A stretch of DNA of 64,000 nt, taken from Azoarcus sp. Aa7. GTDB lineage: Bacteria > Pseudomonadota > Gammaproteobacteria > Burkholderiales > Rhodocyclaceae. The translations under genes and the position numbers were made by a program. Shown here piece by piece: positions 18,525 to 58,052 of the stretch. Each line of letters opens with the position of its first letter. Position 1 is the stretch's first letter. The DNA is taken from NCBI RefSeq assembly GCF_014822185.1, contig NZ_QVLR01000056.1, positions 124,001 to 188,000 on the forward strand, in the 5' to 3' direction. The notes below the pieces were generated by a model. That model saw only the letters and a program-made list of their open reading frames with translations. It did no database searches and had not been told where the DNA came from.

Positions 18525-19715
18525 ATGGCTAAAGGCAAGTTTGAGCGGACGAAACCGCACGTAAACGTTGGGACGATCGGCCACGTTGACCATGGCAAGA
18601 CGACCCTGACCGCAGCGATCACGACGATCCTGTCGTCGAAGTTCGGCGGCGAGGCGAAGGCCTATGACCAGATCGACGCGGCGCCGGAAGAAAAGGCGCG
18701 CGGCATCACGATCAACACCGCGCACGTCGAATACGAAACCGCGGCCCGCCACTACGCCCACGTCGACTGCCCGGGTCACGCCGACTACGTGAAGAACATG
18801 ATCACCGGTGCCGCGCAGATGGACGGCGCGATCCTGGTCGTGTCGGCCGCTGACGGCCCGATGCCGCAGACCCGCGAGCACATCCTGCTTGCCCGTCAGG
18901 TCGGCGTGCCGTACATCATCGTGTTCATGAACAAGTGCGACATGGTCGACGACGCCGAGCTGCTCGAGCTCGTCGAGATGGAAGTGCGCGAACTGCTGTC
19001 GAAGTACGACTTTCCGGGCGACGACATTCCCATCGTCAAGGGCTCGGCGCTGAAGGCGATCGAAGGCGACAAGGGTGAGCTCGGCGAAGAGGCGATCATG
19101 AAGCTCGCCGAGGCGCTCGACTCCTACATCCCGACGCCGGAGCGCGCGATCGACAAGCCGTTCCTGCTGCCGATCGAGGACGTGTTCTCGATCTCCGGTC
19201 GCGGCACCGTCGTGACCGGCCGCGTCGAGCGCGGCATCGTCAAGGTCGGTGAGGAAGTTGAAATCGTCGGCATCAAGCCCACGGTCAAGACCATCTGCAC
19301 CGGCGTGGAAATGTTCCGCAAGCTGCTCGATCAGGGTCAGGCGGGCGACAACGTCGGCGTGCTGCTGCGCGGCACCAAGCGTGAAGATGTCGAGCGTGGT
19401 CAGGTCCTGTGCAAGCCGGGTTCGATCAAGCCGCACACTCACTTCACGGGCGAAGTGTACGTGCTGTCGAAGGAGGAGGGTGGCCGTCACACCCCGTTCT
19501 TCAACAACTACCGTCCGCAGTTCTACTTCCGTACGACCGATGTGACCGGTTCGATCGCGCTGCCGGAAGGCACCGAGATGGTCATGCCGGGTGACAACGT
19601 GTCGATCACGGTCAAGCTGCTGGCTCCGATCGCCATGGAAGAAGGTCTGCGTTTCGCGATCCGCGAAGGTGGCCGTACCGTTGGCGCCGGCGTCGTCGCC
19701 AAGATCATCGAGTAA
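18525..19715 (+). CDS. tuf: Elongation factor Tu (second copy)
   Basis: The 396-residue protein is identical to the one encoded at 2063-3253. At DNA level the two genes differ only in codons 3 and 4 (AAA GGC here, AAG GGT there), and identity ends about four bases after the stop. This copy is in the str operon position after fusA, the other in the tRNA operon. Two tuf copies maintained by gene conversion is a common proteobacterial arrangement. Confidence 0.99.
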
Positions 19716-40295: not shown

Positions 40296-40331
40296 GTTGC
40301 AGCGGTCGAAATCTGGCACGTCCGCTGCAAC
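40296..40331. repeat. Inverted repeat overlapping the acx sigma-54 promoter
   Basis: GTTGCAGCGG (40296-40305) and CCGCTGCAAC (40322-40331) are perfect 10-bp inverted arms with a 16-bp spacer. The right arm contains the GC of the -12 element and the left arm lies just upstream of the -24 element. It may be a second protein-binding site or a coincidence of GC-rich sequence. Confidence 0.5.
40314..40329 (+). promoter_or_regulatory. Sigma-54 (-24/-12) promoter of the acx operon
   Basis: TGGCACGTCCGCTGCA matches the consensus TGGCACG-N4-TTGCA at all but one position, with exactly ten bases between GG (40315-40316) and GC (40327-40328). Transcription would start near 40340, about 50 bases before the acxA ATG. 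An AcoR-type sigma-54 activator is encoded in the same cluster. Confidence 0.85.
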
Positions 40332-40392
40332 AGGACTCCCGGGGGCCGGCAGCATCGGCGACTCGACAATCCAGGAGATGATGGAGACAAAC

Positions 40393-42546
40393 ATGGAAGT
40401 CCAACAGGCAGCATCACAAGTACAGGTGATGGGCATCGACGCCGGCGGCACGATGACCGATACCTTCTTCGTGCGCGCCGACGGTCGTTTCGTCGTCGGC
40501 AAGGCTCAGAGCAACCCCGGGGACGAATCGCTGGCGATCTACAACTCGTCGGTTGACGCGCTGGCTCACTGGGGCCGGGAAGTGGACGATGTCTATCCCG
40601 AACTCGCCACCTGCGTCTATTCGGGCACGGCGATGCTCAACCGCATCCTGATGCGCAAGGGCCTCGACGTCGGCCTGATCTGCAACCGCGGCTTCGAGCA
40701 GATCCATTCGATGGGGCGCGCGCTGCAGAGCTACCTCGGGTACGCGCTGGAAGACCGCATCCACCTGAATACCCACCGCTACGACGAGCCGCTGGTGCCG
40801 GTGTCGCGCACCCGCGGCGTCGCCGAGCGCACCGACGTGCAGGGCAGGATCGTGATTCCGCTGCGCGAGGACGAGGTGCGTCAGGCGACGCGCGAACTGG
40901 TCGAGGCCGGATCGCAGGCGATCGTGATCTGCCTGCTGCAGTCGCACAAGAATGAAACGAGCGAGCAGCGGGCGCGCGACCTCGTCAAGGACGAGCTGCA
41001 GAAGTTGAAGGTGGACATCCCGGTGTTCGCGTCGGTGGATTACTACCCGTCGCGCAAGGAAAGCCACCGCATGAACACGACGATCCTCGAGGCCTACGGC
41101 GCCGAACCCTCGCGTCAGACGCTGAAGAAGGTTAGCGACCGCTTCAAGAAGCACGGCGCGAAGTTCGACCTGCGCGTGATGGCGACGCACGGCGGCACGA
41201 TCTCGTGGAAGGCGAAGGAACTCGCACGCACCATCGTCTCCGGCCCGATCGGCGGCGTGATCGGCTCGAAACTGCTGGGCGAGTACCTGGGGGACGAGAA
41301 CATCGCCTGCTCGGACATCGGCGGCACCTCGTTCGACGTCGCGCTGATCACCAAGGGCAGCTTCGCGATCAAGTCCGACCCGGACATGGCCCGCCTCGTG
41401 TTGTCCCTGCCGCTGGTGGCGATGGACTCGGTGGGTGCCGGTGCCGGCAGCTTCGTCCGTCTCGACCCCTACAGCAAGTCGATCAAGCTCGGCCCCGACA
41501 GCGCCGGCTACCGCGTCGGCACCTGTTGGCCGGAAAGCGGCCTCGACACGGTGTCGGTGTCGGATTGCCACGTGGTGCTCGGCTACCTCAACCCGGATAA
41601 CTTCCTCGGCGGCGCGATCAAGCTCGACGTGCAGCGCGCCCGCGACCACATCAAGGCGCAGATCGCCGATCCGCTCGGCCTCTCGGTCGAGGACGCGGCG
41701 GCCGGCGTGATCGAGTTGCTGGACCTGACGCTGTCCGAATACCTGCGCGCCAACATCAGCGCGAAGGGCTACAACCCGGCCGAGTTCACGTGCTTCTCCT
41801 ACGGCGGCGCCGGCCCGGTGCACACCTACGGCTACACCGAGGGCGTCGGCTTCAAGGACGTCGTGGTGCCCGCGTGGGCGGCCGGTTTCTCGGCCTTCGG
41901 TTGCGCCTGCGCCGACTTCGAGTATCGCTACGACAAGTCGGTCGATCTGGGCGTGGCCCAGTTCGCCAGCGATGCGCAGAAAGTGGCGGCTTGCACCAGC
42001 CTCCAGCAGGCCTGGGAAGAACTGGCGGTCAAGGTCATCGACGAGTTCGTCATCAACGGCTACAAGCCGGAAGACGTGCTGCTGATCCCCGGCTACAAGA
42101 TGCAGTACATGGGCCAGTTGAACGACCTCGAGATCGTTTCGCCGGTGTCCACCGCGGCCACTGCGTCCGACTGGAACCAGATCATCGAGACCTTCGAGAA
42201 CACCTACGGCCGCGTCTATGCCAACTCGGCGCGTTCGCCGGAACTGGGCTTCTCGATCACCGGCGCGATCCTGCGCGGCATGGTGGTGACGCAGAAGCCG
42301 GTGCTGCCGGAAGACGCCGATTGCGGCCCGACGCCGCCGAAGGAAGCCTATCTCGGCACCCGTCCGTTCTATCGCCACAAGAAGTGGGTCGAGGCCGCGC
42401 TGTGGAAGATGGAATCGCTCAAGGCCGGCAACCACATCGTCGGCCCCGCGATCATCGAATCCGACGCCACGACCTTCGTCGTGCCCGACGGCTTCGAGAC
42501 CACGGTCGACAAGCATCGCCTGTTCCATCTCAAAGAAGCCCGGTAG
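40393..42546 (+). CDS. acxA: Acetone carboxylase beta subunit
   Basis: A 717-residue hydantoinase A/oxoprolinase-family protein, the nucleotide-binding subunit of the (alpha-beta-gamma)2 acetone carboxylase. This cytoplasmic enzyme makes acetoacetate from acetone and bicarbonate with ATP hydrolysis to AMP. The ASKHA phosphate motif GIDAGGTMTDTFF is at about residue 14 and a second, DIGGTSFDVAL, near 317. The ATG at 40393 is preceded by GGAGA and gives the same length as I recall for the Xanthobacter subunit; in-frame ATGs at 40378 and 40381 are possible. It is the first gene of the sigma-54-controlled operon and is followed by a hairpin-rich gap before acxB. Confidence 0.95.
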   Translation: MEVQQAASQVQVMGIDAGGTMTDTFFVRADGRFVVGKAQSNPGDESLAIYNSSVDALAHWGREVDDVYPELATCVYSGTAMLNRILMRKGLDVGLICNRGFEQIHSMGRALQSYLGYALEDRIHLNTHRYDEPLVPVSRTRGVAERTDVQGRIVIPLREDEVRQATRELVEAGSQAIVICLLQSHKNETSEQRARDLVKDELQKLKVDIPVFASVDYYPSRKESHRMNTTILEAYGAEPSRQTLKKVSDRFKKHGAKFDLRVMATHGGTISWKAKELARTIVSGPIGGVIGSKLLGEYLGDENIACSDIGGTSFDVALITKGSFAIKSDPDMARLVLSLPLVAMDSVGAGAGSFVRLDPYSKSIKLGPDSAGYRVGTCWPESGLDTVSVSDCHVVLGYLNPDNFLGGAIKLDVQRARDHIKAQIADPLGLSVEDAAAGVIELLDLTLSEYLRANISAKGYNPAEFTCFSYGGAGPVHTYGYTEGVGFKDVVVPAWAAGFSAFGCACADFEYRYDKSVDLGVAQFASDAQKVAACTSLQQAWEELAVKVIDEFVINGYKPEDVLLIPGYKMQYMGQLNDLEIVSPVSTAATASDWNQIIETFENTYGRVYANSARSPELGFSITGAILRGMVVTQKPVLPEDADCGPTPPKEAYLGTRPFYRHKKWVEAALWKMESLKAGNHIVGPAIIESDATTFVVPDGFETTVDKHRLFHLKEAR

Positions 42547-42637: not shown

Positions 42638-44962
42638 ATGAACATGATGACAAACAAGGAACTCGGCTTCGCCGACCTGCTGAAGAACGGCCAGACGCTG
42701 AAGCAGTTCCGCGACGGCATCATCGAGCGCACCAAGGCCAGCGGCTACTACAACGGCCAGGAGAAGCTCGAATTCCGCGACAGCGACCCGATCGGCTACG
42801 AAAAGCTGTTCTCCAAGCTGCGCGGCGGCCTGGTGCATGCGCGCGAAACGGCCAAGAAGATCGCCGCGAGCCCGATCGTCGAGCAGGAAGGCGAACTGTG
42901 CTTCACGCTGTACAACGCCGCGGGCGACTGCGTGCTGACCTCGACCGGCATCATCATCCACGTCGGCACGATGGGCGCGGCGATCAAGTACATGATCGAG
43001 AACAACTGGGAAGGCAACCCCGGCATCAATCCCGGTGACATGTTCACGACCAACGATTGCGCGATCGGCAACGTGCACCCGTGCGACATCGCGACGATCG
43101 TGCCGATTTTCTGGGAAGGCAAGCTGATCGGCTGGGTCGGCGGCGTGACGCACGTGATCGACACCGGCGCGGTGACGCCGGGCTCGATGTCGACGGGCCA
43201 GACGCAGCGCTTCGGTGACGGCTACATGATCACCTGCCGCAAGACCGGCATCAACGACGAGCCGCTGCGCGACTGGCTGCACGAGTCGCAGCGCTCGGTG
43301 CGCACGCCGAAGTACTGGATCCTCGACGAGAAGACCCGCATCGCCGGCTGCCACATGATCCGCGAACTGGTCGAGGAAGTGATCCGTGCCGACGGCCTCG
43401 AGGCCTACGAGAAGTTCGCCTACGAAGTCATCGAGGAAGGCCGCCGCGGCCTGATGAGCCGCATCAAGGCGATGACGCTGCCGGGCAAGTACCGCAAGGT
43501 GTCCTTCGTCGATGTGCCGTTCAAGCATGAGGACGTGCAGGTCTCGAACGCCTTCGCCAAGCTCGACTCGATCATGCACTCGCCGTGCGAGATGACGATC
43601 AAGCCGGACGGCAAGTGGAGGCTGGACTTCGAGGGCGCGAGCCGCTGGGGCTGGCATACCTTCAACGCCCACCAGGTGGCCTTCACCTCGGGGATCTGGG
43701 TGATGATGTGCCAGACCCTGGTGCCGACCCAGCGCATCAACGACGGCGCCTACTACGCGACCGAGTTCCGCCTGCCCAAGGGCACCTGGTGCAACCCGGA
43801 CGACCGCCGCACCGGCCATGCCTACGCCTGGCACTTCCTGGTCTCCGGCTGGGCGGCGCTGTGGCGCGGTCTGTCGCAGTCCTACTTCAGCCGCGGCTAT
43901 CTGGAGGAGGTCAACGCCGGCAACGCCAACACCTCGAACTGGCTGCAGGGCGGCGGCATCAACCAGGACGGCGAGATCCACGCGGTGAATAGTTTCGAAG
44001 CCTCGAGCTGCGGCACCGGCGCGTGCGCGGTGAAGGACGGCTTGAATCACGCCGCCGCGATCTGGAACCCCGAAGGCGATATGGGCGACATCGAGATCTG
44101 GGAGATGGCCGAGCCGCTCCTGTACCTCGGGCGCAACGTCAAGGCCAACTCCGGCGGCTACGGCAAGTACCGCGGCGGTTGCGGCTTCGAGACGCTGCGC
44201 ATGGTGTGGAACGCCCAGGACTGGACGATGTTCTTCATGGGCAACGGCTTCATGAACAGCGACTGGGGGATGATGGGCGGTTACCCGTCGGCGACCGGTT
44301 ATCGTTTCGAAGCGCACAAGACGGGACTGGAGCAGCGCATCGCGATCGGCGATTCCCTGCCGCTCGGGGGCGACCTCGATCCGACCCGCCCGGACTATGA
44401 GCGCCACATCGACGCCACCGCCGTGGTCAAGCGCGACAAGCAGTGCATGACCACCGAGGACTGCTACGACAACCACGACCTGTACCTGAACTACCTTCGC
44501 GGCGGCCCCGGCTTCGGGGACCCGATCGATCGCGAGCCGAAGGCGATCGAGAACGACCTGAACCAGAAGTTCCTGCTGCCGGAATACGCGCAGAAGGTCT
44601 ATGGCGCGGTGTTCACGCAGGACGCGAAGGGCGTGTTCACCGTCGATGCCGCGAAAACCCAGGCGCGCCGTGCCGAGATCCGCAAGGAGCGCCTCGCGCG
44701 CGCCCTGCCGACGCGCGAGTGGATGAAGGAGGAGCGCGAACGCATCGTCAACAAGCATGCGGCGGTGCAGGTGCAGCACATGTTCGCGACCAGCTTCGCG
44801 CTGTCGGAGAAGTTCACGAAGGAGTTCAAGGCGTTCTGGAACCTGCCGGCCGACTGGCAGCTGCTGGAGACCGAACTCGGCGTGCCGACCTACGGCTCGA
44901 AGCATCGCATGGACCTGTCGCTCCTGCCCGACGTCACCACCGTCGTCCAGGTCGAAGAGTAA
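42638..44962 (+). CDS. acxB: Acetone carboxylase alpha subunit
   Basis: A 774-residue hydantoinase B-family protein carrying the manganese site where the enol form of acetone meets carboxyphosphate-derived CO2. Candidate metal ligands are His147 and Asp150 (GNVHPCD) and His172 (THVIDTG), which line up with the Mn ligands I recall for the Xanthobacter enzyme. The ATG follows GAGGAG by seven bases; a frame starting at 42605 lies in the hairpin element. The length agrees with the known subunit. The gene is followed by acxC after 23 bp. Confidence 0.95.
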   Translation: MNMMTNKELGFADLLKNGQTLKQFRDGIIERTKASGYYNGQEKLEFRDSDPIGYEKLFSKLRGGLVHARETAKKIAASPIVEQEGELCFTLYNAAGDCVLTSTGIIIHVGTMGAAIKYMIENNWEGNPGINPGDMFTTNDCAIGNVHPCDIATIVPIFWEGKLIGWVGGVTHVIDTGAVTPGSMSTGQTQRFGDGYMITCRKTGINDEPLRDWLHESQRSVRTPKYWILDEKTRIAGCHMIRELVEEVIRADGLEAYEKFAYEVIEEGRRGLMSRIKAMTLPGKYRKVSFVDVPFKHEDVQVSNAFAKLDSIMHSPCEMTIKPDGKWRLDFEGASRWGWHTFNAHQVAFTSGIWVMMCQTLVPTQRINDGAYYATEFRLPKGTWCNPDDRRTGHAYAWHFLVSGWAALWRGLSQSYFSRGYLEEVNAGNANTSNWLQGGGINQDGEIHAVNSFEASSCGTGACAVKDGLNHAAAIWNPEGDMGDIEIWEMAEPLLYLGRNVKANSGGYGKYRGGCGFETLRMVWNAQDWTMFFMGNGFMNSDWGMMGGYPSATGYRFEAHKTGLEQRIAIGDSLPLGGDLDPTRPDYERHIDATAVVKRDKQCMTTEDCYDNHDLYLNYLRGGPGFGDPIDREPKAIENDLNQKFLLPEYAQKVYGAVFTQDAKGVFTVDAAKTQARRAEIRKERLARALPTREWMKEERERIVNKHAAVQVQHMFATSFALSEKFTKEFKAFWNLPADWQLLETELGVPTYGSKHRMDLSLLPDVTTVVQVEE

Positions 44963-44985
44963 TCACCGAATCGAGGAGTTGGAAA

Positions 44986-45492
44986 ATGTCTACCTACACC
45001 AATGAACAGGTCGCCCACCTCGTCGAAGGCACGCTCGACTGGGAAACCACGTTCCGCATGTTGTCGATGCCCAAGGACAACAGCCGCTTCGAGCAGTACC
45101 TGAAGGCGCTGCAGTCCAAGGTGAGCTTCAAGGACAAGATCGTGCTGCCGCTCGGGCCCCACCTCCACATCGTGCAATCGGCGAAGACCAAGCAGTGGGT
45201 CACGATGTGCGACTGCGGCCACGAGTTCGGCGACTACCGGGAGAACTGGAAGCTGAAAGCGGCGATCTACGTGCGCGACACGGAGGAGGCAATGACCGAG
45301 GTGTATCCGAAGCTGATGGCGCCGGATACCCAGTGGCAGGTGTACCGCGAGTACTACTGCCCGACCTGCGGGACGATGCACGACGTCGAGGCGCCGACCC
45401 CGTGGTACCCGGTGATCCACGACTTCGAGCCCGACATCGAAGCCTTCTACAAGGAGTGGGTCGGCCTGCCCGTCCCTGAAAAGGCGGCCTGA
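44986..45492 (+). CDS. acxC: Acetone carboxylase gamma subunit
   Basis: A 168-residue small subunit of the (alpha-beta-gamma)2 acetone carboxylase. It has a zinc-ribbon-like cysteine set, Cys75, Cys77, Cys125 and Cys128 (CDCGHEF and CPTCGTM). Its length equals the small subunit of characterised enzymes. A GAGGAGTTGGAAA site precedes the ATG. A hairpin-rich gap separates it from the envelope-module genes on the same strand. Confidence 0.94.
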   Translation: MSTYTNEQVAHLVEGTLDWETTFRMLSMPKDNSRFEQYLKALQSKVSFKDKIVLPLGPHLHIVQSAKTKQWVTMCDCGHEFGDYRENWKLKAAIYVRDTEEAMTEVYPKLMAPDTQWQVYREYYCPTCGTMHDVEAPTPWYPVIHDFEPDIEAFYKEWVGLPVPEKAA

Positions 45493-45501
45493 GCCGTCCT
45501 C

Positions 45502-45574
45502 GCCGGGCGGTAGACCCGGCGCCTGCGGGCCGGTGCCTCCCTCGGGGGCACCGGCCGGGGCCCACCGCGGGCCC
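45502..45574 (+). repeat. Cluster of three GC-rich hairpins after acxC
   Basis: GCCGGG/CCCGGC (45502-45507, 45515-45520), GGCCGGTGCC/GGCACCGGCC (45528-45537, 45547-45556) and GGGCCC-N5-GGGCCC (45558-45574) follow one another. None has a T tract. They mark the boundary between the carboxylase and envelope genes and may stabilise the upstream mRNA or cause partial termination. Confidence 0.6.
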
Positions 45575-45685
45575 GATCAAATTCCCGTATCAACCGACCG
45601 CCATGCGGGGCGAAAGCCCTGCAGGGCCTCGGCTACGCAAAAAAACGAAAGTCACGCGCCGTTCCCCGGCGTGGAGGAGAGAGTG

Positions 45686-46705
45686 ATGCTGCGTCGATTG
45701 AGGAAATATGGAGGCGGCGCCCGCGGCGTCGTCACGTTGATGACGTCGTCCGCGCCGCTGGTGATCGTCGGCGGACTGCTGTACGCCGGGCTGTTCGTGA
45801 AGGCCGAGGCGGTCGTGCAGAAGGTCGAACCGCCGGCGATCGAGCGCCGCGACAGTTTCTATGCCGTCGCCACTCCCGACGAGCGCGTCGTGTGGGCCGC
45901 CGGCTCCGGCGGCAAGATCGTGCGCAGTGAGGACGGCGGTCAGTCGTGGGTGCGCCAAGGCTCCGGCACCGACGTCAATCTGCAGGGCATCGCCGCCTGG
46001 GACAGCGACGGCGCGATCGCGGTCGGCAACGACGGGGTCGTCGTCGTGACGGCCGATGCGGGGCGCAACTGGAGCCGTGCCGAGATCCCCGCGAGCAGCA
46101 ATCCGAACAAGCTCTTCCGCGTGCGCATCGCGAACGGTGCGGCCTGGGCCGTCGGTGAATTCGGCGCGCTGCTGCGCTCGAACGACCGGGGCGCAAGCTG
46201 GACCCGCGTGCTGCCCGAAAAGGACCGCGCCTGGAACGACATCGCCTTCGTCGGTGACGCCGGGTGGCTGGTCGGCGAGTTCGGCGCGCTGATGAAGAGC
46301 GCCGATGGTGGCGCGACGTGGGAATCGATCGAGACCCCGAACAAGGTCAGCCTGATGAGCGTGGCCTTCCGCGATGCGCAGCACGGGGTCGCCGCAGGCC
46401 TCGCCGGGACGCTGCTCGTGACGGCCGACGGCGGCGCGTCGTGGCGGCAGGTGCCGGCCTTCACGCGCGAGCACTTCTACAGCGTGATGTGGGACGACGG
46501 CCGCTGGCTCGCCGTCGGCGACAAGGGCGTCATGGCGACCGCCGACGGGGCTGGCGAGCAGTGGGCGCTCGGTCGCGTGGCGGAAGGCGACGTCTCGTGG
46601 CGTACCGCCGTTGCGCGCTCCGGCGCGCGCTATTTCCTTGCCGGCAGCAACCTCGCCGTGCTCGACGACGGCGCGCTGAGCGTCGCCGGCCACAAGCGCA
46701 TGTGA
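45686..46705 (+). CDS. Membrane-anchored YCF48/BNR beta-propeller protein
   Basis: A 339-residue protein with one N-terminal membrane segment (about 22-40) and a large domain predicted to lie in the periplasm. Five Asp-box repeats of the form S/T-x-D-x-G-x-x-W are visible at about 81, 122, 165, 205 and 246, typical of YCF48/HCF136-like propellers. The ATG is preceded by GGAGGAGA. The gene is ten bases upstream of an MMPL/RND permease and starts a four-gene envelope block. Family members are assembly factors in photosystems; here it may act as a scaffold or stability factor for the permease. Its biochemical role is not known. Confidence 0.85.
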   Translation: MLRRLRKYGGGARGVVTLMTSSAPLVIVGGLLYAGLFVKAEAVVQKVEPPAIERRDSFYAVATPDERVVWAAGSGGKIVRSEDGGQSWVRQGSGTDVNLQGIAAWDSDGAIAVGNDGVVVVTADAGRNWSRAEIPASSNPNKLFRVRIANGAAWAVGEFGALLRSNDRGASWTRVLPEKDRAWNDIAFVGDAGWLVGEFGALMKSADGGATWESIETPNKVSLMSVAFRDAQHGVAAGLAGTLLVTADGGASWRQVPAFTREHFYSVMWDDGRWLAVGDKGVMATADGAGEQWALGRVAEGDVSWRTAVARSGARYFLAGSNLAVLDDGALSVAGHKRM

Positions 46706-46715
46706 GGGGACGAGG

Positions 46716-49091
46716 ATGAAGAACACGACTTTCGGCAAGGTCGACGCGGCCTTCGCCTTTCTCATCCGCTTCCGCGCGCTGGTCGTCGCCGCGGTCGCGC
46801 TCGTGACGCTGGCGATGGGCTACCAGGCGAGCCAGATCGAGGTGAAGACCGTCTTCAGCGATCTGCTGCCGCGCAACCATCCCTACGTGGAGGTGAACCA
46901 GCGCTTCAAGCAGACCTTCGGCGGCTCGAACATGGTCAGCATCATGCTGGAGGCGGAGCGGGGCGACATCTTCAACCCCGTCGTGCTCGGCAAGGTGCAG
47001 AAGCTCACCGTCGACCTGCAGCAGGTCGAGGGCGTCGATACCTACCAGATCATTTCGCTCGCTTCGAAGAAGATCAAGGAGGTGCGTGCCTCGACCGAAG
47101 GGGTCGAATCGCGCCCGCTGATGTGGCCCGACCTGCCGCAGGGCGACGCGGAACTCGCGGCACTGAAGGCCTCGGTGCTGAACAACCCGCTGGTCTATGG
47201 GCCCTACGTGTCGACGGACCTGAAGGCGACGCTCGTCACGGTCGACTTCAGCGACGGCAACATGGACTACACGCGCGCCTTCAACCAGTTGATGAAGTTG
47301 GTGGGCGAGGCGGCCGGCGACGGTGTGCAGGTGCGCATCGTCGGCGAACCGGTGCTCTACGGCTGGGTGAACCACTACCTGCACGAGACGCTGACCATCT
47401 TCTTCGTCGCGGTCGCCGCGCTGGTCGTGCTGCTGTGCCTGATCACGCGCACCTGGCATGGCACGGTGCTGCCGCTCCTTGCCGGCCTCGTCAGTGCGGT
47501 GTGGGCATTGGGCGCCGCGCGCCTGATGGGCTTCCATCTCGATCCGCTGGTCGTCGTCGTCGCCTTCCTGATCACCGCGCAGGCGATTTCCAACTCGGTG
47601 CAGCTCATCGCGCGCTTCGACGACGAGACGCGCCAGGGCACGCCGAGCGCTGCGGCGGCGGCGCGGGCGAGCGCGCGCAATCTGTTCAAGCCGAGCATGC
47701 TGGCGATCGTCGCCGATGCGGGCTGTGTGCTGGTCGTCGCGCTGACGCCGATCCCGTTGCTGCAGAAGATCTCCTTCATCGGCACGGTGTGGGTGCTGAC
47801 GATCGCGGTCAGCGCGCTGGCCCTGACGCCGGTGATGCTGTCGTGGTTCGGTTCGCATCAGCGCTTCATCCATCCGGTGAACATCAACCCGCTGCTGATG
47901 CGCATCCTCGGCCTGTGCTCGGCGATCGTCACGACGCGCTGGCGCTATGCGGTGCTCGGCATGGCGGGCGCGGTGTTCGTGCTCTCCGGCCTGTATGCCT
48001 TCAACCTCAAGGTCGGCGACGCCAATCCCGGCTCGCCGATCCTGTGGCCGGATTCGAGCTACAACCGCGATGCGGCCGAGATCAACCGCCAGTTCCAGGG
48101 CTCGGACCGCATGTTCGTGGTGGTGGCGGGCAAGGAGCAAGGGGCGCTGCGCGAGCCCGAGGTGCTCTCCAGCATGACCCGCTTCCAGAAGTACATGGAG
48201 GCCCAGCCGGAGGTCGGCGGCAGCATCTCGCTCGCCGACATCCTGCCGCAGGTGAACCGGGTGCTGCGCGAGGGCAACCCGATGTACCAGGAGCTGGGCA
48301 AGAGCGCCGACGAAAACAGCGAGCTGATGTACATGTTCGTGTCCGGCTCCGACCCGGGCGACATGGACCGCTACGCCGACGCGGACGCGAAGAACGGCGC
48401 CGTGACGCTGTTCTTCCGCGACCACCAGGGCGAGACGATCCGCACCGCCGTGGCGCGCGTGCGCGACTATGTCGCCCAGCACCCGATCAAGGACGCCGAG
48501 TACCTGCTGGCGGGGGGGCTCGTCGGCGTGCTGGCGGCGGTGAACGAGGTGATCCTCGCCGGGCAGATCGAGGCCATCGCGCTCGCGCTGCTGGTGCTGG
48601 TGGTGTGCTGCACGGTCACCTACCGCTCTACGGTCGCGGGCGTGTTCTTCATGATCCCGGTGCTGCTCTCCAACACCATCACCTTCAGCTACATGGCGTG
48701 GCAGGGCATCGGCATGAACATCAACACCCTGCCGGTGGTGGCGCTCGGGATCGGCCTGGGCGTCGATTACACCTTCTACATCGTCGATGGCATCCGCGAG
48801 AACCTGCACCGCTCGCACAACGTCGAGCGCGCGATCGTCAATGCATTAATGGGGCCGGGCAAGGGCGTGCTGATCACGGCGATGACGCTGATCACGAGCG
48901 TCGTGCTGTGGCACTTCTCGTCGCTGCGCCTGCAGGCCGACATGGGCGTGCTGATCGCGTTGTGGCTGTTCATCTCGGCCTTCAGCGCGCTCTTCATCAT
49001 GCCTGCCCTCGTCTATGTCTTCCGTCCGGAATTCATCGTCGGCAGCAAGCGCCACCCGATCGAGCAGGCCGAGCCGGTGATGGTCGGCTGA
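46716..49091 (+). CDS. MMPL/RND-superfamily permease
   Basis: A 791-residue inner-membrane protein with the duplicated MMPL layout. One helix is near residues 13-34, then a periplasmic domain (about 40-220), five helices (about 225-390), a linker, a single helix, a second periplasmic domain, and five helices (about 605-780). The SSD-like region has LPVVALGIGLGVDYTFYIVD with an Asp in the proton-relay position. It resembles the hopanoid/lipid-transporter side of the RND family more than AcrB. No periplasmic adaptor gene is adjacent; the propeller and two exported proteins take that place. Confidence 0.87.
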   Translation: MKNTTFGKVDAAFAFLIRFRALVVAAVALVTLAMGYQASQIEVKTVFSDLLPRNHPYVEVNQRFKQTFGGSNMVSIMLEAERGDIFNPVVLGKVQKLTVDLQQVEGVDTYQIISLASKKIKEVRASTEGVESRPLMWPDLPQGDAELAALKASVLNNPLVYGPYVSTDLKATLVTVDFSDGNMDYTRAFNQLMKLVGEAAGDGVQVRIVGEPVLYGWVNHYLHETLTIFFVAVAALVVLLCLITRTWHGTVLPLLAGLVSAVWALGAARLMGFHLDPLVVVVAFLITAQAISNSVQLIARFDDETRQGTPSAAAAARASARNLFKPSMLAIVADAGCVLVVALTPIPLLQKISFIGTVWVLTIAVSALALTPVMLSWFGSHQRFIHPVNINPLLMRILGLCSAIVTTRWRYAVLGMAGAVFVLSGLYAFNLKVGDANPGSPILWPDSSYNRDAAEINRQFQGSDRMFVVVAGKEQGALREPEVLSSMTRFQKYMEAQPEVGGSISLADILPQVNRVLREGNPMYQELGKSADENSELMYMFVSGSDPGDMDRYADADAKNGAVTLFFRDHQGETIRTAVARVRDYVAQHPIKDAEYLLAGGLVGVLAAVNEVILAGQIEAIALALLVLVVCCTVTYRSTVAGVFFMIPVLLSNTITFSYMAWQGIGMNINTLPVVALGIGLGVDYTFYIVDGIRENLHRSHNVERAIVNALMGPGKGVLITAMTLITSVVLWHFSSLRLQADMGVLIALWLFISAFSALFIMPALVYVFRPEFIVGSKRHPIEQAEPVMVG

Positions 49092-49101
49092 TCCATACCC
49101 C

Positions 49102-49132
49102 GCGGACGCGACGGCATTCCCGCCGCGTCCGC
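49102..49132 (+). other. Hairpin between the permease and DUF1302 genes
   Basis: A 9-bp perfect stem GCGGACGCG/CGCGTCCGC (49102-49110 and 49124-49132), extended inward by CGG/CCG after one mismatch. It has no T tract and probably acts on mRNA processing or stability rather than termination. Confidence 0.5.
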
Positions 49133-49177
49133 CCGTGATCCCTTCAGAGCAGTGACAAAACGAAAAGGAGCGAGGAG

Positions 49178-50794
49178 ATGAGGAGCAAGGGAGTATCGAA
49201 GTTCAGGGTGTCGGTGCTGGCGGTGGCTGCGGCCCTGGCCGGCATGGCCGGGAGCCCCGCGCGGGCCGAGGAGAAGGGGAATTACGAGGTTGCAGCGCTG
49301 GCGCTCGCCGACCAGCCCGCGAAGTCCTGGGCCGCCGACGATTTCAGCTTCAACCTGTCCGGCTATGCGCGTGGCTGGGTATCGGTGAACCTTCAGGATC
49401 AGCCGGAACTGAAGGCGATCGGCGAGAAGAGCAAGGGCAAGCTGTCGATGGTGCGCGGCTCGCTGTTGCTCGACGCCGATGCCAAGACCGGGCCGATCAA
49501 GTGGAAGGCGATCGGCCGCGTCGACCGCGAGTACAAGACCGACTACCTGGATGATCTCGAGCGTCTGCGCGAGACCAACGGCACCGACCGCGGCGGCCAT
49601 GCGAGCAGCATCCTGGACAACTACAACCGCGGCGAAGTGCGCGAGTTCTGGGCCGAGATTCCGCTGGGCGACCGCGTCACCGTGAAGGCCGGCAAGCAGC
49701 AGCTGGTGTGGGGGGAGTCCGACTTCTTCCACGCGATGGACCTCGTGCATGGCTACGACCTGTCGTGGCGCCTGTTCTTCGAGGGCGAGAACGAGGAGTG
49801 GCGCAAGCCCCTGACGCTGATCTCGACCAAGATCCGCGTGCCCGAGGCGGACGGCATGCTGGCGGCCTACATCCGTCCCGGCGTCGATCGCTGCCAGGAC
49901 ATCGGCAACACCTACGACATCCAGGGCGGGCGCTGGTTCTTCCAGCCCTACCGCGGCTTCGATCTCACGGCGGTCACCGACAAGGACTGTGACCATCCCT
50001 CCGGCGACTACCGCGACGTGACGGGCGGCGTGCGCTGGTCGGGCGAGGCCTTCGGCCTGAGCTATTCCTTCGCGTGGCTCACGACCTTCTCGGCCGACCC
50101 GGTCGCGAACTCCGCTTTCAAGCCCTACAAGAAGGCGCCCGAAGGCGCGGTGTTCGACCGCATCCACCCGCAGATCGACGTGTACGGCATGACGGTGAGC
50201 GGCTACAGCGCGACGCTGAATGCCGTGCTCAGCGCCGAGATGGCCTACACCAAGGACCAGCCCTACAACATCGGCACCGGCGCCTTCCTCAGCCCGAATG
50301 TTCCCGGGAACGTCGGTATCGGGCTCGGTGGGGTGAAGCTGAAGGACACGCTGACGACGATGCTGCGCATCGACAAGGACCTCGACCTGGAGGGCATTTT
50401 CGGTACCTCGCGGCCCTCGTTCTCGTCGATCCAGCTGTTCGACACGCAGGTGCTGAACTTCAAGGAGTCCGACGACCTCGTGCGTCTCTTCGCGTACGGC
50501 ACGCCGCTCACCGAGCACAACACGATCCTGACCGCCTTCACGACGCTGAACTACCGCAACGACACGATCAACCCCGGCTTTGCGATCGGCTTCGATCTCA
50601 GTCACGGCGGTGGCTTCGCGATCCCCAGTGTGTCGCTGACGCTCAATGACCAATGGCTGGCGAAGATCGAGGCGGACCTGTTCTGGACCGGCGACCGCTC
50701 CAACAAGGTGCCATTCAGCAACCAGAGGTCGCAGCTGTTCGGCTACTTCGACAAGGCCAGCCAACTCGTTTTCCGCTTGACCCGGCAGTTCTAA
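49178..50794 (+). CDS. DUF1302 family outer-membrane beta-barrel protein
   Basis: A 538-residue exported protein. The signal peptide (VLAVAAALAGMAG region) is cleaved probably after ARA at residue 30. The rest is rich in alternating beta-strand patterns and ends in the outer-membrane signature LVFRLTRQF with a terminal Phe. The family is known mainly from genome context with DUF1329 proteins, and its substrate is unproven. GGAGCGAGGAG precedes the ATG. A role as an outer-membrane channel for hydrophobic compounds would fit, but it is an inference. Confidence 0.85.
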   Translation: MRSKGVSKFRVSVLAVAAALAGMAGSPARAEEKGNYEVAALALADQPAKSWAADDFSFNLSGYARGWVSVNLQDQPELKAIGEKSKGKLSMVRGSLLLDADAKTGPIKWKAIGRVDREYKTDYLDDLERLRETNGTDRGGHASSILDNYNRGEVREFWAEIPLGDRVTVKAGKQQLVWGESDFFHAMDLVHGYDLSWRLFFEGENEEWRKPLTLISTKIRVPEADGMLAAYIRPGVDRCQDIGNTYDIQGGRWFFQPYRGFDLTAVTDKDCDHPSGDYRDVTGGVRWSGEAFGLSYSFAWLTTFSADPVANSAFKPYKKAPEGAVFDRIHPQIDVYGMTVSGYSATLNAVLSAEMAYTKDQPYNIGTGAFLSPNVPGNVGIGLGGVKLKDTLTTMLRIDKDLDLEGIFGTSRPSFSSIQLFDTQVLNFKESDDLVRLFAYGTPLTEHNTILTAFTTLNYRNDTINPGFAIGFDLSHGGGFAIPSVSLTLNDQWLAKIEADLFWTGDRSNKVPFSNQRSQLFGYFDKASQLVFRLTRQF

Positions 50795-50810
50795 AAAAGA
50801 GGAGACCACC

Positions 50811-52136
50811 ATGCACAAGCAGTCACGACTCACCGGCCAGCCGTCGGTCCGGCAACTGGCGACCGTCGGCGCCGTCGGCCTGACGCTCATGTTCGCCGCG
50901 CAGGGCGCGAACGCCAAGGCGCTGGACGCCGGCTTCGTCATCACGAAGGACAACCTCGCGAGCGTCAAGAACGACACCTTCGAGGGCAAGACGATCGGCA
51001 GCATGATCCCCGAGAAGCTCGAGTGGATGATCACCAACTACGGCCTGACCATCAAGATCGCGAACTCGAAGAAGATCGAGATGGACCCGAAGTACGTCGA
51101 GGCGACGAAGAAGTGGTCCAAGGAGGTCAAGTTCAATCCGGCCGACCGCACGATCAGCGGCTGGAAGGCGGGGATGCCGTTCCCGCCCGAGACGATCAAG
51201 ATGGACGACCCCAACGCGGGCGACAAGGTGATCTGGAACCTGCGCGCGGCGACCTACGGCGCGACGATGGACCTGCGCGACATCGCCTGGGTGTTCCTCG
51301 ACGCGAAGAAGGGCTACGAGCGCGTGCAGGCCTTCCAGTCGCGGCGCTATTACATGGAAGGAAGGCTCGACGGCGGCCCCATCTCGGTCGGCGACGGCGA
51401 CGTCTCGCAGAAGACCTACTTCGTCGCGCATTACCCGCAGGACATCCGCGGCCTGGGCACCTTCTCGCAGCGCTACAACCAGGCCGACTCGGCGAAACCC
51501 GACGATTCCTACGCCTACCTGAAGTCGGTGCGCCGCACGCGCCGGCTCTCCGGCGGCGCATGGATGGACCCGATCGGCGGCACCGACCAGCTCTACGACG
51601 ACTGGGACATCTGGGACGCGTGGCCGACCAAGTACACCCAGAACAAGCTGGTCGAGAAGCGCTGGGTGCTGGCCATCGCACATAGCCCCGAGATGAGCGT
51701 CGACACCGCGCAGCCGTGGAGCGAGCCGCAGAAACGCTTCCCGCGCATCAACATGGCCGAGCCGCCGTTCGCCAATCCGGCGAAGGACGTCGAGTGGGAG
51801 CCGCGCGAGGTGTACGTCGTCGAGGGCACACCGCCCGCCGAGCATCCGTACAGCAAGAAGGTCGCCTATATCGAGGTCGATTTCCCGCGGCCGTACCTGG
51901 GCTACGCGCTCGACCGCAAGGGTGAGTTCTGGAAGATGTTCATCTTCCAGAACCGCCCCGACACCGGCGACGACGGCTACAAGGCGGTGATGCCGGTGGT
52001 CGGCCACATCATCGACGTCAAGCGCGGCCATGCGACCAACTGGTCGTCCAACATGAAATCCAATCCGAAGGGGGTGAAAGAGACCGACGTGTCGCTGAAC
52101 ATCCTCGAGGAAGTCGCTACCGGCGCGGGCCGCTGA
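50811..52136 (+). CDS. DUF1329 family exported protein
   Basis: A 441-residue protein with a signal peptide (VGAVGLTLMFAAQGANA, probable cleavage after residue 36). It has no further membrane segment, so it is periplasmic or bound to the outer membrane. Aromatic- and charge-rich segments such as YAYLKSVRRTRRLSGGAWMD and GYALDRKGEFWKMFIFQNRP are typical of the family. It is tightly linked to the DUF1302 gene (16 bp gap), the usual pairing. A lipoprotein-like fold that carries lipophilic ligands has been suggested for this family; function here is unknown. Confidence 0.85.
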   Translation: MHKQSRLTGQPSVRQLATVGAVGLTLMFAAQGANAKALDAGFVITKDNLASVKNDTFEGKTIGSMIPEKLEWMITNYGLTIKIANSKKIEMDPKYVEATKKWSKEVKFNPADRTISGWKAGMPFPPETIKMDDPNAGDKVIWNLRAATYGATMDLRDIAWVFLDAKKGYERVQAFQSRRYYMEGRLDGGPISVGDGDVSQKTYFVAHYPQDIRGLGTFSQRYNQADSAKPDDSYAYLKSVRRTRRLSGGAWMDPIGGTDQLYDDWDIWDAWPTKYTQNKLVEKRWVLAIAHSPEMSVDTAQPWSEPQKRFPRINMAEPPFANPAKDVEWEPREVYVVEGTPPAEHPYSKKVAYIEVDFPRPYLGYALDRKGEFWKMFIFQNRPDTGDDGYKAVMPVVGHIIDVKRGHATNWSSNMKSNPKGVKETDVSLNILEEVATGAGR

Positions 52137-52181: not shown

Positions 52182-52215
52182 TCCGCCCCAGCCTGTCTTC
52201 GGGGCGGATTTTTTT
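52182..52215 (+). terminator. Intrinsic terminator after the envelope genes
   Basis: An 8-bp perfect stem TCCGCCCC/GGGGCGGA (52182-52189 and 52201-52208) with an 11-base loop is followed directly by seven Ts (52209-52215). It lies 46 bp after the DUF1329 stop and 65 bp before the ligase gene, splitting the catabolic cluster into two transcription blocks unless it is leaky. Confidence 0.82.
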
Positions 52216-52279: not shown

Positions 52280-54268
52280 ATGAACGAATATACCCCGGTG
52301 GCTTATGACTGGCGCGACACGCAGCTCGCACGCTTCATCGCGCGACACGGCGACCGCGACCTCGACGCCCTGCGCGAGCGGGCAGCGCGCGAACCCGGAC
52401 GTTTCTGGGACCAGGTGCTCGATGCGATCGACCTGAAGTGGGTGACGCCCTACCGCGAGACGCTCGATCTCACCGACGGCGTGATGTGGCCGAAATGGTT
52501 CGTCGGCGGCCGGCTCGACCTGGTCGACAACCTCGTCGGCAAGCACGCACGGGCGACCCCGACCAAGATCGCGATCCGCTGGGAGGGCGATCGCGGCGAG
52601 TTGCGCACGATCAGCTACGCCGAACTCGCGGGCGAAGTCGAGCGCGTCGCCGCAGGGTTGCGCGCGCTCGGGGTGGAGGAGGGGGACCGCATCGCGCTCT
52701 ACCTGCCCATGATTCCGGAAGCGGCCGTCATGATGCTCGCGGCGACCCGTATCGGCGCGATCTTCATCCCGTTCTTCTCGGGCTACGGCGCCGACTCGGT
52801 CGCGCAGCGCGTCAAGGACTGCGATGCGCGCGTGCTGGTGTGCGCGAACGGCTACTACCGTCGCGGCAAGCGCGTCGCGATGCTCGACGACGCCCGGGCC
52901 GCGGCGCGCGAATGCCCCTCGCTGCAGCACGTCGTCATCGTCGACCGCCTCGGCATCGGCCTCAGCCCCGCGGTGGATGCCGGCGCTTCCCGGCTCATCG
53001 AGCTCGACTACCGGCGATTGCCGGCTTCGGTATCGATCTGCCCGCCGACGGCTTTCCCGGCCGATCAGACGCTGATGCTGATCTACACGTCCGGCACCAC
53101 CGGCAAGCCGAAGGGCGTCGTGCATACGCATGCGGGCTTTCCCGTGAAGGCCGCGCAAGACCTGCAGATGGCTTTCGACCTGCGCGCCGAGGACACGCTG
53201 ATGTGGGTCACCGACATGGGCTGGCTGATGGGGCCGTGGATGGTCTATGGCGGACTGATGCTCGGCGCGACGCTGGTGTTCTACGAAGGCACGCCCGATT
53301 ACCCCGACGCGGGGCGTCTGTGGGAGGTCGTCCGGCGCCACGCCGTCACGCATTTCGGCCTCTCGCCGACGCTGGTGCGCCTGTTGATGGCGAACGAGGG
53401 AAGCCTGCCCGAACCCGCGGCGATCGAGAGCCTGCGCATCTTCGGCTCGACCGGCGAAGCCTGGAACGAGGCGCCGTGGCTGTGGCTCTACGAGGAGGTC
53501 GGCCGCTCGCGCCGCCCCATCATCAACTACTCCGGCGGCACCGAGATCGGCGGCGGCATCCTCGCCTGCTTCCCCGGGCTGCCGCAGAAACCCGGCTCGT
53601 TCGCGGGGCCGATCCCGGGCGTGGCGGCGGACGTGCTCGACGCCGACGGTCGTCCATTGCGCGGCAGCGTCGGCGAACTCGCGATCCGCCAGCCCTGGCC
53701 GGGCATGACCAACGGCTTCTGGCGCGACCCCGGGCGCTATCGCGAGGCGTACTGGTCGGTGTGGCCGGACGTGTGGGTGCATGGCGACTGGGCACGCGTG
53801 GATGAGGACGGCCACTGGTTCGTGCACGGGCGCAGCGACGACACCATCAAGGTCGCCGGCAAGCGCGTCGGCCCGGCGGACTTCGAATCGGCGCTGGTGG
53901 CGCACCCGCTGGTCGTCGAGGCCGTCGCAATCGGCGTACCCGACGAGATCAAGGGCGAGTCCGTAGTGTGCTTCGTCACCGTCGCGGACCGCGATGCGCT
54001 CGCAACGCGTCCCTGGGCGGGGTGGGAAGCCGAGCTCGTCGAACACGTCGGCCGCCAGCTCGGCAAACCGTTGCGCCCCGCGCGTATTCACCTCGTCGCC
54101 GCGATCCCCAAGACGCGCAACGGCAAGACGGTGCGGCGCGTGATGCGCGGCGCCTACCTCGGCGGCGGACTCGGCGACCTTTCGGCCATCGAGAATCCCG
54201 GGGCGATCGATGCGGTGGGCGCGCTCGGACGCGCCGCGCGCGAAGGCGCCGATGCGCTGCAGGCATGA
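52280..54268 (+). CDS. AMP-forming acyl-CoA ligase, probably acetoacetate-CoA ligase
   Basis: A 662-residue ANL-superfamily enzyme with the layout of acetyl-CoA synthetases. The P-loop [17 protein letters not shown] is near residue 270, GDWAR lies in the A7-A8 region, and the catalytic lysine in [12 protein letters not shown] is near 616. At the position where acetyl-CoA synthetases have a pocket-closing Trp (WWQTETGG), this protein reads YSGGTEIGG (417-425), close to the GGTD-type motif of acetoacetyl-CoA synthetases. With its place next to acetone carboxylase, this suggests acetoacetate activation. The ATG follows GGAGGGGAGGA. No promoter was seen after the upstream terminator. Confidence 0.75.
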
Positions 54269-54294: not shown

Positions 54295-54993
54295 ATGAGC
54301 AAGGTATTTGCGGACGCGGCCACTGCGCTGGCCGACGTCGTGGGTGACGGGCAGACCGTCGCGGTCGGCGGCTTCGGCCTGTGCGGCATCCCGGAAATGC
54401 TGATCCACGGGCTGCGTGACGCGCGGGTGAAAGGCCTCACGGTCATCAGCAACAACGCCGGCGTCGATGGCGTGGGCCTGGGATTGCTGCTCGAATCGCG
54501 GCAGATCCGCAAGATGGTCGCGTCCTACGTCGGCGAGAACGCCGAGTTCGAGCGCCAGCTGCTCTCCGGCGAACTGGAAGTGGAACTGACGCCGCAGGGC
54601 ACGCTCGCCGAAAAGCTGCGCGCGGGCGGGGCGGGCATTCCCGCCTTCTACACCCGGACGGGCGTCGGCACGCTCGTCGCCGAGGGCAAGGAGGAGCGCG
54701 ACATCGACGGCAAACGCTACCTGCTGGAGCGCTCGCTGACCGCCGACATCGCGCTCGTGAAGGCGTGGAAGGCGGACCGTGCCGGCAACCTCGTCTATCG
54801 CAAGACGGCGCGCAACTTCAACCCGGTCGTCGCCACGGCCGGGCGCATCACGGTCGTCGAGGTCGAGGAACTCGTCGAGACCGGATCGCTCGACCCCGAC
54901 CACATCCACACCCCCGGCGTCTTCGTCCAGCGCATCGTCGTCAATCCGCGCCCGGCGAAGCACATCGAACAACGCACGACACGGCAGGAGTGA
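54295..54993 (+). CDS. scoA: 3-oxoacid CoA-transferase, subunit A
   Basis: A 232-residue family I CoA-transferase subunit that would move CoA from succinyl-CoA to acetoacetate. It has the family start [16 protein letters not shown] and the glycine-rich [15 protein letters not shown] typical of the SCOT type, with [14 protein letters not shown] later. AAGGAGGA precedes the ATG. It is followed by the B subunit after two bases. Substrate assignment rests on family and context. Confidence 0.85.
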
Positions 54994-54995
54994 TC

Positions 54996-55643
54996 ATGGC
55001 CTGGACACGCAACGACATGGCGCGCCGCGCGGCGCGCGAACTGCAGGACGGCTTCTACGTGAACCTCGGCATCGGCATGCCGACGCTGGTCGCCAACCAC
55101 ATTCCGCCGGGCATGGACGTGTGGCTGCAGTCGGAAAACGGCCTGCTCGGCATCGGGCCGTTTCCGACCGAGGCCGAGGTCGACGCCGACCTCATCAACG
55201 CCGGCAAGCAGACGGTCACGACGCTCGCCGGCAGCAGCATCTTCAGCAGTGCGGACTCCTTCGCGATGATCCGCGGCGGTCACATCGACCTCGCGATCCT
55301 CGGCGCGATGCAGGTCAGCGAGCACGGCGACCTCGCGAACTGGATGATCCCCGGCAAACTCGTGAAGGGCATGGGCGGCGCGATGGACCTCGTCGCCGGC
55401 GTGCGCCGCGTGATCGTGATGATGGAGCACTGCAGCAAGGACGGCGCGCCGAAGATCCTGCGCCGCTGCGAACTGCCGCTCACCGGCGTCGGTGTCGTGA
55501 ACCGCATCATCACGGACCTGTGCGTGCTCGATGTCACGCCCACCGGCTTGCGCCTCGTGGAAACCGCGCCGGGAGTCGACGTCGGTGACGTGCTCGCGTG
55601 CACCGGCGCACCGATCGAACCCGGCGAGCTCGTGCCCGTCTGA
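54996..55643 (+). CDS. scoB: 3-oxoacid CoA-transferase, subunit B
   Basis: A 215-residue partner of subunit A. The catalytic glutamate that forms the CoA thioester is Glu47 in [12 protein letters not shown], and [14 protein letters not shown] precedes it. GGAG lies before the ATG, within the end of subunit A. With the ligase gene this gives two possible routes from acetoacetate to acetoacetyl-CoA; no thiolase gene is present in the window. Confidence 0.85.

Positions 55644-56006: not shown

Positions 56007-58052
<2,046 letters not shown>

Follow-up and report, generated by a model that had tools for sequence, protein, structure and literature searches.

A YCF48-MMPL-DUF1302-DUF1329 gene set of the AmeABCD kind in Azoarcus sp. 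Aa7, linked to ketone carboxylases and predicted to form an envelope transporter

AmeABCD of Castellaniella defragrans 65Phen is described as an efflux system for apolar monoterpenes and is linked to monoterpene tolerance (PMC6394551). Deletion of ame causes poorer growth on monoterpene hydrocarbons and slightly higher Nile Red accumulation in cells treated with carbonyl cyanide m-chlorophenylhydrazone (CCCP), and with acetate the mutant keeps pace with the wild type at up to 5 mM limonene, lagging at higher doses. The same paper describes HAE3 proteins of the resistance-nodulation-division (RND) type as moving substrates into the periplasm, and names the HpnN hopanoid transporters as their only characterised members. 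In P. putida, PP_0765, PP_0766, PP_2018 and PP_2019 are required for growth on Tween 20 (PMC10866462), and in the Desulfobacterota ORM2a a cluster with DUF1329, YCF48 and MMPL genes is highly expressed during benzene degradation, its authors leaving the direction of transport open (PMC13101534). During growth of T. oleivorans on a long-chain alkane an MMPL/LolA-like protein is expressed, as is a porin-like neighbour (PMC6304351), and a Delftia DUF1329 mutant is impaired on phenanthrene, as PMC13101534 cites from PMC3958437. Positions 45686-52136 of a 64,000-nucleotide stretch of Azoarcus sp. Aa7 (the window; contig NZ_QVLR01000056.1, positions 124,001 to 188,000) hold a gene quartet of these families directly after the acetone carboxylase genes acxABC.

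The quartet lies on the + strand in the order YCF48/BNR, MMPL (RND), DUF1302, DUF1329, with 193 bp between acxC and the YCF48 gene and 10, 86 and 16 bp between the quartet genes, and all four open reading frames (ORFs) have purine-rich ribosome-binding contexts. ORFs and Pfam agree with the initial annotation on four same-strand genes after acxABC with gaps of 10-193 bp. The description of a trans-envelope set with no adaptor or TolC-type gene stands as well, since Pfam gives no adaptor (HlyD/MFP) or TolC-type match in the four proteins at E ≤ 0.001. The proposal that this is an undescribed system is rejected, because the same four components are already in print as AmeABCD (PMC6394551), with relatives in P. 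putida (PMC10866462) and ORM2a (PMC13101534), and because six of the eight other full-length MMPL paralogues of this genome sit in sets of the same kind. What sets this quartet apart is its link to ketone carboxylases.

Among the best 80 of 145 acxC relatives, the set stands directly after acxC in the same order at 12 loci, of which 11 are complete and one (L069) is cut by the contig end inside DUF1302; at a further locus, L076, the downstream sequence is too short for a judgement. These 12 loci belong to Aromatoleum, Methyloversatilis and related metagenome-assembled genomes, their quartets are 55-97% identical to that of the window, and a ligase gene follows the set in 10 of the 11 uncut loci. 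At 14 other acxC loci a homologue of this ligase (56-68% identical) lies within 300 bp after acxC, and the set is absent. Two acx-quartet loci also carry, on the opposite strand about 5 kb upstream of acxA, another DUF1329 homologue; its identity to that of the window is 77% in one (L075:2-547) and 60% in the other (L082:2-331).

The survey of 249 genomes of the family, in which the MMPL subtype is defined by E ≤ 1e-150, finds 55 subtype copies in 44 genomes and PF08882, the acetone-carboxylase-gamma type, in 52. Thirty-three of the 55 copies have a PF08882 gene no more than 16 kb away: for 16 of them it is a strong match (true acxC) that lies within 5 kb, and for the other 17 a weaker match, the strong/weak division being set by the authors by E-value and two of the weaker links (G017) being very weak. 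Counted from the enzyme side, 16 of the 41 strong PF08882 matches and 17 of the 40 weaker ones have the subtype close by. The controls are 150 Ame-like MMPL matches listed out of a larger number (at most three candidates scored per genome, four for the subtype), 75 of which belong to PF08882-bearing genomes; the number found near PF08882 is zero at up to 16 kb, one at up to 20 kb and two at up to 30 kb. Chance linkage is rejected on this comparison (33 of 55 against 0 of 150 listed controls within 16 kb), and the neighbourhood survey proposed in the initial annotation finds non-random linkage.

The weaker PF08882 matches at loci L139-L149 belong to an apcA-, apcB-, apcC- and apcD-like gene set (apcD-like beyond the stretch in L139). 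When the enzyme of L143 is scored against the NCBIfam equivalog models of acetophenone carboxylase, ApcA reaches 342 of the 1250 required, ApcB 129 of 250, ApcC 560 of 1500 and ApcD 322 of 1500, so that by sequence the carboxylase linked to this second group is Apc-like only, with scores far under the acetophenone carboxylase cut-offs. A protein of 264-295 amino acids that matches no NCBIfam model is encoded in eight of 15 Apc loci, CoA-transferase-like clusters are found in four and a sigma54-activator cluster in four (one member of each tested by Pfam). A second, different MMPL gene lies directly upstream of apcA in L143 (L143:2-2996, 869 amino acids, preceded by a DUF1329 gene cut by the stretch start) and at the start of L144, bringing parts of two transporter types together in a single ketone-carboxylase locus. 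In L152 and L153 the Apc-like enzyme is accompanied by YCF48 and MMPL only, with no DUF1302 or DUF1329 gene found within the stretch. Genome G017 has unusually many ketone-carboxylase-type enzymes, with 11 PF08882 matches (two short partial, two weak) and three subtype MMPLs.

The trees follow the enzyme type. The MMPL tree, made by a quick method with long branches flagged, holds 53 set members and the eight paralogues of this genome, on which it is rooted, and keeps two identical pairs (L032/L178 and L159/L177); the genes of L154, L156, L160 and L176 were taken from six-frame hidden Markov model matches. In this tree the 14 acx-linked rows form one clade with a Shimodaira-Hasegawa-like approximate likelihood ratio test (SH-aLRT) support of 100, these together with 11 Apc-linked rows form a clade of 25 (99), and a clade of 33 (89) holds all acx and Apc rows. 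Among the 53 members, 21 are labelled as having no carboxylase, including L154, which has a weak PF08882 match 16 kb off and is counted as near in the linkage count; 19 of the 21 fall outside the 33-row clade, and 10 adjoin amidases. The sister-clade quartets beside amidases (10 loci within L161-L175) have in several cases a short-chain dehydrogenase/reductase, an Asp/Glu racemase or a dimethyl-sulfoxide-reductase-like oxidoreductase nearby. The YCF48, DUF1302 and DUF1329 trees, made by a quick method too, recover the same acx clade (SH-aLRT 99-100; 13 rows for DUF1329), and in each of them a single change accounts for the acx copies plus the 11 core Apc copies. Since the acx clade appears in all four trees and is joined to the core Apc copies, the four genes descend as a unit with the enzyme type.

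Promoter-like sites give a further tie. Sigma54-type (-24/-12) sites were scanned at a minimum of 10 of 12 scored positions with GG and GC required, using a consensus that is near-identical to one quoted in PMC2864759. The site TGGCACGTCCGCTGCA upstream of acxA (40314-40329, + strand, 11 of 12 positions) is one of four such sites in the window on both strands, and the background is 0.049 per kb. Among the 14 acx-quartet loci, 12 have a site ahead of acxA and none has one before YCF48, the pattern of a single operon transcribed from acxA. All 11 core Apc loci (L139-L149) have a site at their first HyuA gene; over the whole Apc class 11 of 30 HyuA-type genes scanned have one, the second HyuA gene being internal. 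YCF48 has its own site in nine of the 15 Apc loci, all nine of them core, and in these the gene either points away from its upstream neighbour or is separated from it by at least 477 bp. No-carboxylase quartets have a site in 0 of 21 cases and the HyuAB class in 0 of 2. Control of acx by sigma54 and AcxR is reported for Xanthobacter and Cupriavidus (PMC2864759); the new part is the predicted sigma54-type site that the quartet carries for itself when it stands apart. The tie to ketone metabolism made in the initial annotation is supported by this non-random linkage and by the sites common to carboxylase and quartet loci. From linkage, co-descent and common promoter-like sites together, a ketone-related role of the quartet is likely.

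The proteins fit a carrier-type envelope transporter. The YCF48/BNR propeller (45686-46705, +) has an N-terminal hydrophobic segment, the N-terminus having been read directly, and matches PF14870 (6.6e-25) and Ycf48 in the Protein Data Bank (PDB) (2xbg, 5.8e-21). The MMPL/HAE3-like RND permease (46716-49091, +) matches PF03176 (4.4e-31), and its solved-structure relatives in the PDB include HpnN (6wu0, 6.3e-12) and MmpL5 (8zkp, 1.3e-14). It has a D684-Y685 pair, which is presumed from family knowledge to lie in transmembrane helix (TM) 10, and by motif alignment its S292-N293 in TM4 stands at the position of Ser-His in relatives. The Ser-His pair is found in 33 of the 61 MMPL rows, and Ser-Asn or Ser-Thr in a 28-row clade that contains the acx-linked copies; this change possibly means altered proton coupling. 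The DUF1302 outer-membrane barrel (49178-50794, +), which ends in a C-terminal Phe, has the weakest Pfam match of the quartet (PF06980, 58 bits against a cut-off of 23.2), and its sequence has no PDB match at E ≤ 1. Its predicted model is a specific-channel barrel resembling Occ/OprD and maltoporin-type channels; FadL is not among the 50 barrel matches listed, which excludes nothing. DUF1329 (50811-52136, +; PF07044 and PF17131 LolA_like) is an exported protein with a predicted LolA-like half-barrel, which places it with LolA-fold carriers. Pfam finds no membrane fusion protein or TolC-type match in the eight proteins from acxA to the ligase, so these genes do not have the make-up of an HAE1-type tripartite pump. 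DUF1302 and DUF1329 are common yet poorly understood families.

The reading preferred here is that the quartet forms a ketone-inducible, proton-driven envelope transporter with a LolA-fold carrier, a variant of the Ame kind and a standing part of the ketone-carboxylation regulon, which would clear membrane-partitioned ketones or other hydrophobic compounds and so give tolerance; it is given an even chance of being right. Sigma54-dependent transcription from 40314, triggered by a ketone, would continue through acxABC and on into the quartet. Powered by protons via the Asp-Tyr pair, the MMPL/RND protein would extract a hydrophobic molecule from the periplasm or the inner membrane, the YCF48 propeller with its membrane anchor would organise the complex, the LolA-fold DUF1329 protein would ferry the cargo through the periplasm and the DUF1302 barrel would let it out through the outer membrane. 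We infer the complex, the proton drive, the induction, the export direction and the cargo alike. Acetone itself is an unlikely cargo, being small, water-miscible and membrane-permeable; clearance of ketones that are more hydrophobic, or of other compounds that partition into the membrane, is therefore favoured over uptake or lipid transport, and by analogy with AmeABCD and monoterpenes a clearance or tolerance role seems the most likely. A bolder form is possible and is held more tentatively: the quartet may be a dedicated ketone branch of an adaptor- and TolC-free class of carrier transporters (RND motor, propeller scaffold, LolA-fold shuttle, barrel), co-switched with the carboxylases through sigma54 and moving ketones or ketone-altered lipids.

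Several observations weigh against the clearance reading. In the tree of AcxA and AcxB (76 rows, 13 with the set, after five of 81 were dropped for truncation: L014, L062, L063, L064 and L070), 63 acx loci do not show the set, L076 with its short downstream sequence among them, so that the set is dispensable and not needed for acetone carboxylation as such. Of the subtype copies, 22 of 55 are not near PF08882, and the sister clade with no carboxylase shows that four-gene sets of this kind have no general tie to ketones. The subtype is also nearly confined to one family, with only two further genomes among 398 of the phylum (own genome aside), and in both of these HyuA and HyuB homologues come after the set, their closest models being those for caprolactamase and Apc, with scores below the cut-offs. 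The sigma54 site before acxA is a feature of acx loci at large, being present in 50 of the 59 that lack the set, and the four outer Apc-like loci (L150-L153) show none at the first HyuA gene or at YCF48. The MMPL protein scores under the curated HAE3 cut-off (TIGR00921, 148.3 bits against 351.9), which is still its lowest E-value in NCBIfam, and where other members have a His in TM4 it has an Asn, so its coupling may differ. Real-time Nile Red efflux in C. defragrans is almost equal in mutant and wild type (PMC6394551), the need of P. putida for its homologues on Tween 20 fits uptake equally well (PMC10866462), and export of freely diffusing small ketones would presumably be futile.

The best-surviving alternative, though an unlikely one, is uptake, in which the DUF1302 barrel and the DUF1329 carrier import a hydrophobic growth substrate (a larger ketone, an alcohol or a precursor) and the RND protein resets or pulls the carrier. 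The Tween 20 requirement, the resemblance of the DUF1302 model to Occ/OprD and maltoporin-type specific channels, the strong expression of the Desulfobacterota cluster on benzene with its direction left open (PMC13101534) and the T. oleivorans expression on alkane (PMC6304351) all agree with import. However, the transport described for HAE3 proteins is into the periplasm and the lag of the ame mutant with acetate only above 5 mM limonene fits detoxification (both PMC6394551), while acetone would require no channel. Lipid traffic ranks next and is doubtful: the set would supply the outer membrane with phospholipid or some other membrane lipid and adapt the envelope to solvents, the ketone being only the inducer. 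This agrees with the HpnN and MmpL lipid or siderophore exporters among the solved MMPL relatives, with a DUF1329 fold that is that of lipoprotein carriers and with HpnN transporters being the only characterised HAE3 members (PMC6394551); but no lipid-synthesis family is present among the 13 window proteins tested, and a clade-level pairing with carboxylases would be odd for a general lipid function. A mobile cassette that landed once beside acx and is carried with no role in ketone metabolism is very improbable, because its patchy presence in the AcxA+AcxB tree (at least six changes, four of them forced by starred branches) is set against four trees that follow the carboxylase type, a kept order and position between acxC and the ligase, and sigma54-type sites before the quartet itself in Apc loci but not in no-carboxylase loci.

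If the bolder form is right, ketone carboxylation in these bacteria would be an envelope-plus-enzyme system and not the work of an enzyme alone. A branch that goes with ketone carboxylases, and that has sigma54-type sites of its own when apart, offers a narrow and testable hypothesis on cargo, and the transporter class would be seen to diversify by catabolic substrate. Genome G100, inferred to be A. aromaticum EbN1, carries an acx-linked set, which gives a model locus in a cultured organism. In a plasmid collection 14 records have an MMPL match, the best being EbN1 plasmid 2 (NC_006824.1, 59.9%) and the others 26-33%.

The surrounding genes are all on the + strand. The acetone carboxylase is encoded by acxA (40384-42546, HyuA type, start codon uncertain; PF05378/PF01968/PF19278), acxB (42638-44962, HyuB type; PF02538) and acxC (44983-45492, gamma subunit; PF08882, 3.4e-56). 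The acxC-YCF48 gap (45493-45685) has no sigma54 site and gives nothing in Rfam at E ≤ 0.1, and it is strongly structured as RNA (z -4.18, 0 of 200 shuffles equally low), a feature absent from the initial annotation, so that it was considered as a possible terminator or attenuator; by eye, GC-rich hairpin-forming sequence is present in the corresponding gaps of relatives too. No terminator-like site is found in it on the + strand, and a hairpin with a T tract that resembles an intrinsic terminator lies at 52182-52215 (site 52193-52207, arms 52182-52189 and 52201-52208), in line with the earlier placing of the first terminator at 52182. Judging from layout and promoter-like sites, quartet and acxABC would form one operon. 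Downstream are an acetyl/acetoacetyl-CoA-synthetase-like ligase (52280-54268; PF00501/PF16177), two CoA-transferase subunits (54295-55643, as 54295-54993 and 54990-55643; PF01144 in both) and a sigma54-dependent activator with a GAF domain (56031-58052, start uncertain; PF00158, PF01590, PF02954), AcxR-type by position. The ligase was considered as an acetoacetyl-CoA synthetase and is under the cut-off of every NCBIfam model among the 25 shown of 102. Elsewhere in the window, two ORFs of 396 amino acids with identical first 20 residues (2063-3253 and 18525-19715, EF-Tu-like by eye) flank a ribosomal gene block.

The same genome has 10 DUF1302 matches and eight further full-length MMPL paralogues, 27-32% identical to the window MMPL. 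Six of these paralogues sit in sets of all four families (L100-L105) with at least three gene orders, L108 has no labelled YCF48, and L106 is an MMPL alone with DUF1302 and DUF1329 about 16 kb off (L107). One set, L102 (C34:44-51 kb), has ame neighbours in ame order: a MaoC-type hydratase, a citrate-lyase-type protein and an acyl-CoA dehydrogenase upstream, and an acetoacetyl-CoA-synthetase-like ligase, an enoyl-CoA hydratase and a second ligase downstream. The genome therefore appears to hold an Ame equivalent, and it may handle monoterpenes too. The four window proteins are 24-31% identical to those of L102 and differ in order, so the window set is a distinct branch; its MMPL is 29% identical to that of L102, which stands here in place of AmeD.

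Compared with known systems, the window shares with AmeABCD a DUF1302 outer-membrane protein, a DUF1329/LolA-like periplasmic protein, a YCF48-like protein and an HAE3-type RND protein encoded together, and AmeABCD likewise sits inside a catabolic gene island with an acetoacetyl-CoA synthetase downstream (PMC4109377). It differs in its order, C-D-A-B where ame has DUF1302-DUF1329-YCF48-RND, an A-B-C-D order stated to be conserved in that lineage (PMC6394551), in its context of ketone carboxylase and sigma54, and in the Asn that replaces the TM4 His. The P. putida set shares DUF1302, DUF1329, a periplasmic protein and an RND-type transporter, for which a transport complex is proposed by co-folding, but its genes are split over two loci with locus numbers far apart, and the accessible text mentions no ketone carboxylase (PMC10866462). 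The ORM2a 'Nanopod' cluster shares DUF1329, YCF48-related and MMPL proteins plus a porin-like protein, and differs by its substrate benzene, its methanogenic culture and extra proteins including a universal stress protein (PMC13101534). In Helicobacter pylori acxABC likewise adjoins envelope transport genes (a short-chain fatty acid permease and an outer-membrane protein), which are of other kinds, and it is outside the RpoN regulon of that species (PMC2244623). The acxRABC genes of Cupriavidus metallidurans and Xanthobacter have, as here, a sigma54 promoter and an AcxR-type activator for acetone carboxylase, but no transport set is mentioned in the accessible portion of that source (PMC2864759), and the set follows acxC in 0 of 8 Cupriavidus loci of the survey. 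The open-licence literature gave no link of the quartet to ketone carboxylases, an absence that is weak. As read from sequence, the quartet appears to belong to an already described four-component kind, of which the ketone-carboxylase-linked branch, with its apparently shared genetic switch, is the new part.

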